Positions 4,410 to 38,243 of a stretch of 64,000 bases of DNA are shown here, piece by piece. Source of the DNA: Phycisphaeraceae bacterium (GTDB lineage: Bacteria; Planctomycetota; Phycisphaerae; Phycisphaerales; UBA1924); the NCBI GenBank assembly GCA_019636675.1, contig JAHBXC010000003.1, positions 1-64,000 of the forward strand, read 5' to 3'. The translations under genes were made by a program, and so were the position numbers. Below the pieces are notes generated by a model. The model was not told the DNA's origin. It searched no databases and saw nothing but the letters and a program-made list of their open reading frames with translations. The stretch's first letter is position 1, and each line of letters opens with the position of its first letter.

Positions 4410-5222
4410 TTAATAGGCCCCGGTTCCCGTCCCCCCAGCGACGATCGCGACGCCCGACGAGCACCCCAGCCGGTCGGCGCCGGCGTCGAGCATGCGCAGC
4501 GCGTCGTCGCGCGTGCGGATGCCTCCGGACGCTTTGACCTTGAGCGCGCCCTCGCCCTGGCCGGCGTGTTTGCGCAGCAGGCGGACGGCGTCGACTGTGG
4601 CGCCGCCGGCGCTGTGGAAGCCGGTGGAGGTCTTGACGAAATCGCACCCGCTGCGTCGCGCGCCCTCGCAGCCGGCGGCGAGCATGGCTTCAAACTCGGC
4701 GTCGTTGCCGGCGAGGGCGCGCAGGGCGGCGGTCTCGAGGATGACCTTCACCACGATGGAGCGTGAAACGGCGCGCACCTGGCGCACGGTTTCGATGAGG
4801 TCGGACGCGAGGGAATCGGCGTCTTTGGCGAGCAGGTGCGGCAGGAAGGCGACGATGTCGATCTCCTGCGCGCCGAGCTTCGCGAGGTTGGTGCACTCGA
4901 GGGCGCGCCCGACGGGGGTCATCGCGCCGAGGGGGAAAGAGGCGACGACGCAGGCCTTGACGGCGTGCTTCTCGCCCTGCCGCTCGCCGGACAGAAGACC
5001 CTCCCCCTGCCCCCTCCCGCGAGCGGGAGGGGGGGATTCTGTCAGGCGCTGGACGACGCGTGGGAGGTAGTACCCGTTGACGCAGACGGAGGCGAAGCGG
5101 TGAGCGAGTGCCTCGTCGACGAGGCGGTCGATCTGGTCGGGGGTGGCTTCGGGCTTGAGGAGGGTGTGGTCGATGCGGGAAGCGAGGTCGTCGGGGATCG
5201 CGGCGTGGGGTTCTGGGGCCAT
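4410..5222 (-). CDS. deoC: Deoxyribose-phosphate aldolase with in-frame repeat insertion
   Basis: DeoC splits 2-deoxyribose 5-phosphate into glyceraldehyde 3-phosphate and acetaldehyde in deoxynucleoside salvage. Family landmarks are IDHTLLKP near the N-terminus, FASVCVN, the Schiff-base lysine in CDFVKTSTGF, and VKASGGIRT for the second lysine. At 270 residues it is longer than the usual 215-225. The excess is residues about 63-84, a Pro/Arg/Gly-rich segment encoded by a repeat that is also found at 31369-31409. The insertion lies between FASVCVN and the FPLG strand, away from the catalytic lysines, so the enzyme may still fold. No other nucleoside salvage genes adjoin. Confidence 0.9.
   Translation of the reverse strand: MAPEPHAAIPDDLASRIDHTLLKPEATPDQIDRLVDEALAHRFASVCVNGYYLPRVVQRLTESPPPARGRGQGEGLLSGERQGEKHAVKACVVASFPLGAMTPVGRALECTNLAKLGAQEIDIVAFLPHLLAKDADSLASDLIETVRQVRAVSRSIVVKVILETAALRALAGNDAEFEAMLAAGCEGARRSGCDFVKTSTGFHSAGGATVDAVRLLRKHAGQGEGALKVKASGGIRTRDDALRMLDAGADRLGCSSGVAIVAGGTGTGAY
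4994..5034. repeat. 41-bp GC-rich hairpin element inside deoC
   Basis: These 41 bases are identical to 31369-31409. The core is a near-perfect hairpin with arms CCCCCTCCCGC (5010-5020) and GCGGGAGGGGG (5023-5033) around a GA loop. Here it lies within deoC and is read in frame without a stop. Confidence 0.9.
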
Positions 5223-9138: not shown

Positions 9139-9154
9139 GTCTTCACTTTCTCTT

Positions 9155-9189
9155 CCTGCTCCCCACTCCCTGCTCCCTGCTCCCTATTC
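9155..9189. repeat. Heptanucleotide array 1 (CCTGCTC type)
   Basis: Five consecutive 7-base units read CCTGCTC, CCCACTC, CCTGCTC, CCTGCTC, CCTATTC. The array ends where the rpsI terminator T-tract (read on the minus strand) begins. Confidence 0.85.
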
Positions 9190-13110: not shown

Positions 13111-16285
<3,175 letters not shown>

Positions 16286-31368: not shown

Positions 31369-31409
31369 GAAGACCCTCCCCCTGCCCCCTCCCGCGAGCG
31401 GGAGGGGGG
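31369..31409. repeat. 41-bp GC-rich hairpin element, intergenic copy
   Basis: This copy is identical over 41 bases to 4994-5034 inside deoC. It begins one base after the stop of the TPR gene and ends 10 bases before the DUF58 gene. Confidence 0.9.

Positions 31410-38145: not shown

Positions 38146-38243
<98 letters not shown>

Follow-up and report, generated by a model that had tools for sequence, protein, structure and literature searches.

What is a repeat that also lies between genes doing inside the reading frame of a conserved enzyme? The question is raised by the minus strand of positions 4410–5222 in the 64,000-nt stretch of planctomycete DNA that we analysed (the window). This is deoC, encoding a deoxyribose-phosphate aldolase of 270 amino acids: its TIGR00126 score is 157.8 bits against a curated cut-off of 117.3, Pfam supports the same identity, and its best PDB relatives are DERA structures. 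Within the gene, 41 bases at 4994–5034 are exactly identical to 31369–31409 on the plus strand, where a sister copy lies between two genes and outside called genes. An identity of this length is far above chance, and in deoC the bases are read in frame. The sequence-only reading that first pointed to this locus held that a palindromic repeat had inserted into deoC without loss of frame and had been domesticated as coding sequence. The insertion is well supported by what follows; nothing that we found points to recruitment for a function.

The insert in DeoC

The segment SPPPARGRGQGEGLLSG, residues 63–79 (4986–5036, minus strand; ~51 nt, with edges uncertain by a few residues), is absent from all 14 aligned DeoC homologues, taken from the same genome family and from named contigs, planctomycete and other. 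Nine of the 14 (L047–L052, L078, L079 and L082) show a gap of 17 residues but keep the linker next to it, and the gap is longer in the other five. Consistent with this, phmmer alignments of DeoC to DERA structures are interrupted between query residues 60–64 and 83–91. As had been proposed, the inserted segment sits between FASVCVN and FPLG and away from both catalytic lysines. D122, K197 and K230 are invariant alignment columns outside the inserted segment, and we take them to correspond to the known catalytic aspartate and two lysines of DERA.

The Pro/Arg/Gly-rich extra stretch is real, and it is 17 residues long rather than the ~22 (63–84) first claimed for it. Similarly, the element accounts for only part of the 45–50 residues by which this DeoC was said to exceed the family norm. 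The remainder is at the termini, in a slightly longer loop near 172–180 and in a few residues near 221, and is unrelated to the element.

The insert is somewhat longer than the element, which is ~41–45 nt. Its exact boundaries, and any target duplication, are not visible because identity to the nearest DeoC is just 66% (the closest homologues span 60–66%) and there is no empty site: a scan of the genome contigs for a nearer DeoC gave a closest match of only 60%, and hence no empty site from the same species. No direct repeat longer than 6 nt flanks the insert at offsets of 36–74 nt. In the deoC of the closest relative (L047, genome G109) there is one in-frame TGA, near position 2200 and near the end of the matched stretch; it may reflect a premature stop, a frameshift or a mistake in the assembly.

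A structure prediction places the insert in a disordered loop and leaves the barrel intact. The AlphaFold model has a mean pLDDT of 86, with values above 90 for most of the barrel and below 50 for residues 69–84, and its TM-score against DERA structure 6d33 is 0.94 (target-normalised). In the model, the insert occupies the loop between helix 50–62 and strand 89–94 of the barrel. Loops that lead from a helix to a strand in a TIM barrel are on the opposite face from the active site.

A three-block repeat

The element in deoC occupies 4994–5036 on the minus strand and has a conserved end, GAAGACCC when read on the plus strand. Forty-two copies together give the consensus GAAGACCCTCCCCCTGCCC-CCTCCCGCNNGCGGGAGG-GGGga. 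On the minus strand the deoC copy consists of a C-tract, a 6-nt loop (GCTCGC), a G-tract, a 2–3-nt loop and a third block that mirrors the second. A three-block pattern match at 4999–5031 (minus strand) assigns block 1, the C-rich CCCTCCC, to 5025–5031; block 2, the G-rich GGGAGGGGG, which is the Watson-Crick complement of block 1, to 5010–5018; and block 3, the G-rich GGGGGAGGG, which is the mirror of block 2 and the third strand of the proposed triplex, to 4999–5007.

Triplex motifs (TMs) of class II are defined by a C-rich, a G-rich and a mirror G-rich stem (C-G-G), in that order and each of 6–15 nt, with loops of 1–6 nt (PMC4666352). The deoC copy has this stem order, and both of its loops fall within this range. 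Furthermore, block 3 is exact in 42 of the 46 copies whose palindrome core is exact, though a hairpin does not need block 3. The second loops of variant copies, those with the stem CCCTCCC/GGGAGGG, include TTA and CCG, the loops of E. coli TM types A and B (PMC4666352). Judged on these sequence features, the element is a three-block putative intrastrand triplex motif of the TM/boxC kind rather than the simple palindrome first described; its description as a dispersed repeat holds. Compared with shuffled sequences of equal composition, the hairpin was no more stable (z -1.29), and we dropped stability as proof of structure.

The likeness to the TM/boxC repeats of E. coli extends to the succession of C-tract, G-tract and mirror G-tract, the short loops, the TTA and CCG loops, a number of copies in the tens, and inverted doublets, which also occur among the E. 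coli TM coordinates (PMC4666352). There are two differences. The E. coli consensus is CCCTCNCCC-N3-6-GGGNGAGGG-N3-GGGNGAGGG (Holder et al. 2015, PMC4666352), whereas the deoC stem is CCCTCCC/GGGAGGG, and thus the deoC copy does not match the literal consensus. In addition, E. coli TMs are described as always intergenic (PMC4666352), whereas here 12 variant copies and at least two canonical copies lie inside genes.

Copy number and distribution

In the genome to which the window belongs (3.31 Mb, 8 contigs, 98.6% complete), the repeat family numbers about 50. There are 46 exact matches to the core palindrome CCTCCCGCNNGCGGGAGG, or 56 when one mismatch is allowed, and the pattern CCCTCCC-N4-7-GGGAGGG-N2-6-GGGAGGG is found 49 times; reversed-pattern controls gave 0 in both cases. 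The sequence-only reading had named two findings that would count against it, these residues in DeoC homologues lacking the repeat and a pair of copies outside any family; neither was obtained. The literal E. coli consensus has 10 further copies, and the deoC copy is not among them. The remaining 162 genomes of the family have at most one copy each of the CCTCCCGCNNGCGGGAGG core, and the canonical TM consensus is matched in 41 of the 163. Across the class, 24 of 397 genomes have the variant pattern, and the lineages in which its counts are high are scattered. One relative, G098, has 33 variant copies, and its DeoC (L049) is without the insert.

Three inverted doublets (C1:1565898/1565960, C3:128195/128256 and C4:1227/1288) each join one TTA-loop copy and one CAG-loop copy across an identical 29-nt gap, an arrangement that is REPIN-like, and in several further pairs of copies the cores are exactly 74 nt apart. 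Tandem repeats of the 7-bp unit CCCATTG start just past the hairpin end in 11 of 65 copies (C2:32703, C3:93553, C3:333043, C3:363935 and C3:364830, among others); in a restriction-modification-like gene these heptamers are apparently translated too. The window also holds other repeats. An unrelated second family is present at 187–335, where the palindrome CACTGTCGGCAAGCCGACAGTG stands at 196 and again, inverted, at 305, the pair having arms of 33 nt, and minisatellite-like dispersed CCCTGCTCCCTGCTCCC repeats occur in both orientations at 9151–9185, 14720–14754 and 38173–38229.

Copies inside other genes

The insertion is not confined to deoC. Among the 49 copies of the variant pattern, 11 exact copies lie inside genes and, with one mismatched copy, make 12, in frame in ten genes; the genes were called by codon-use scoring of frames over 192 kb around the copies, a procedure that favours in-frame copies. 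Besides deoC, the hosts are ileS, argS, mutS, tsaD, dxr, parB and the genes for a ligase-associated exonuclease and an MBL-fold hydrolase, all eight named by NCBIfam, and a restriction-modification/methylase-like gene at C1:1401689 that was judged by eye. The element is open in all six frames, with zero stop codons. Hence, wherever a site is tolerant, the frame stays open after any insertion of a multiple of three bases. The same element-derived peptide appears in unrelated proteins and in several reading frames.

As in DeoC, relatives and known structures argue that the segments are additions. In dxr the peptide is missing from eight relatives, with gaps of 11–16 residues, and the parB copy is within a loop of variable length. 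For dxr, tsaD, parB and argS, alignments to PDB chains, which are without the segment, break at the insert sites. There is a single argS gene in the genome, and the profile matches on either side of its inserts share one frame; since there is only this one, and provided that the assembly is correct, the ArgRS with its inserts must be functional. Stretches of canonical or near-canonical TM sequence are additionally present in mutS, tsaD and argS, giving PSPQPSPQRGEG-like peptides, and the canonical copies are within mutS and tsaD. In mutS (C1:702821–704866; L009, L016 and L105), one canonical and two variant TMs form three successive insertions near the C-terminal part, ~60 residues in all.

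In relatives, too, canonical TMs are found in frame, in a cytochrome-c-biogenesis-like gene (L116, ~1501, genome G006) and in an SDR-like gene (L119, ~1501, genome G020), both named from sequence reading. In-gene TMs are thus not confined to the genome of the window. Among the G098 copies that were read (L144–L151), no convincing in-gene case was found.

How often does the element enter genes? With a coding share of 0.877 in the window, random insertion constrained only by frame predicts ~70% of copies inside genes, against the 11 of 49 observed. This deficit implies either that selection removes most in-gene insertions, even in-frame ones, or that insertion avoids genes. Either cause argues against a general benefit.

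The orientation of in-gene copies is biased. The C-G-G strand is the coding strand in all 11 exact in-gene copies, as compared with 16 of 30 intergenic copies between codirectional genes (Fisher p = 0.007). When the mismatched, oppositely oriented tsaD copy is counted, the bias is 11 of 12 copies (p = 0.03) or nine of ten genes (p = 0.06). The opposite orientation is seen in both canonical copies (mutS and tsaD), and the bias may therefore be a property of the variant only. It may have arisen because a stable purine triplex on the template strand is avoided during transcription, or because selection favours the peptides encoded in this orientation (PPPARGRGQGEG and PPSRSREGAGGG), which are more hydrophilic.

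Alternative explanations

The alternative that survives best, although we consider it improbable, is that the element is an ordinary GTAG/CGTC REP moved by a RAYT transposase. REPs are likewise small and palindromic, the inverted doublets and in-gene copies would suit them, intragenic REPs are known (PMC3733652), and the genome has two Y1_Tnp (RAYT-type) genes. However, the element ends in the conserved GAAGACCC, and no GTAG or CGTC terminal tag was found in the 42-copy column consensus, on which ground we rejected the REP class. Moreover, the mirror third block is conserved. A link to the RAYT transposase was rejected since neither of the two Y1_Tnp loci (3.2 kb each) has a copy of the element within ~1.5 kb of the gene. 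No transposase was found adjoining the element; nor, according to Holder et al., are mobility genes found near E. coli TMs (PMC4666352).

True domestication, in which the 17-residue loop would serve this DeoC in, for example, an oligomer contact, regulation or localisation, is very unlikely. An element intact and free of stops and frameshifts in deoC and several other enzymes is what domestication would leave. Against it stand the same peptide in unrelated proteins and in other frames, the predicted disorder of the loop (pLDDT < 50) and its absence from relatives. The 41-bp identity of the deoC and intergenic copies also suggests recency rather than tuning of the peptide. With no functional sign, we set domestication aside.

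Even less credible is removal of the element before or during translation, by ribosome bypassing or RNA splicing, to give a protein without the peptide. Known ribosome-bypassing elements form hairpins, as this element does, and some copies lie within highly constrained enzymes. Yet all in-gene copies found are in frame and stop-free, whereas removal would need no multiples of three; this evidence is tempered by the gene caller, which could easily find only in-frame copies. Finally, an artefact of assembly or consensus at the repeat, conceivable for a genome in 8 contigs, where repeats may mislead assemblers, is hardly tenable given ten genes that each have a clean in-frame insert, in different frames, and the in-frame copies in other genes of related genomes.

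Probable insertion and tolerance

The simplest account is insertion, then preservation of the frame, then tolerance. Very probably, a G/C-rich repeat of the TM/boxC kind multiplied in this planctomycete lineage and was copied into deoC, where it is a tolerated passenger of an enzyme that keeps its fold and not a recruited part. We infer that the deoC insertion survived because its net length is a multiple of three, the element brings no stop codon in any frame, and the peptide that it encodes, rich in Pro, Arg, Gly, Ser and Glu, would form a disordered surface loop between helix 50–62 and strand 89–94, away from the active site. The same course of events would apply to at least nine other genes.

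Residence of this kind has precedents. Palindromic repeats in frame within protein genes are known from Rickettsia (RPEs) and, as GTAG/CGTC REPs, from many species (PMC3733652); the latter decorate coding genes, including those for repair proteins and tRNA synthetases, and form dimers and clusters (Di Nocera et al. 2013, PMC3733652). What the element described here shares with RPEs is that of a short palindromic repeat residing in frame in numerous unrelated genes, which probably still work, and its in-frame insertion into several unrelated conserved genes is residence of the RPE type. The likeness is one of mode of residence: RPEs come from another phylum, and RPE-1 is described as a longer palindrome (PMC3733652). 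With intragenic GTAG/CGTC REPs, it shares dimers, clusters and residence in coding genes that include repair genes and tRNA synthetases, whereas here the tag is absent and a flanking RAYT gene was not found. TM repeats and in-frame palindromic repeats are both known. Our literature search found no report of TM repeats inside genes, which is not proof of absence.

What is the significance of TM-kind repeats inside genes? TM/boxC repeats have been known for years without a function or a means of spreading, and the E. coli copies are reported only between genes. In-gene copies permit comparison with empty sites in a conserved background, which gives the unit of insertion, and they make a bias in orientation relative to transcription readable. 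Tentatively, and as a possibility rather than a probability, we suggest that the TM-kind repeats of Phycisphaerae may be active mobile elements that insert in genes, are kept mainly where the putative triplex-forming strand is the coding (non-template) one, and continue to supply core enzymes with new disordered loops, at times two or three to a protein, as in mutS, argS and tsaD. The in-gene copies are also natural experiments on the tolerance of core enzymes to loop insertion. For annotation they carry a warning: peptides like PPPARGRGQGEG are derived from a repeat and are not features of the protein families in which they are found.
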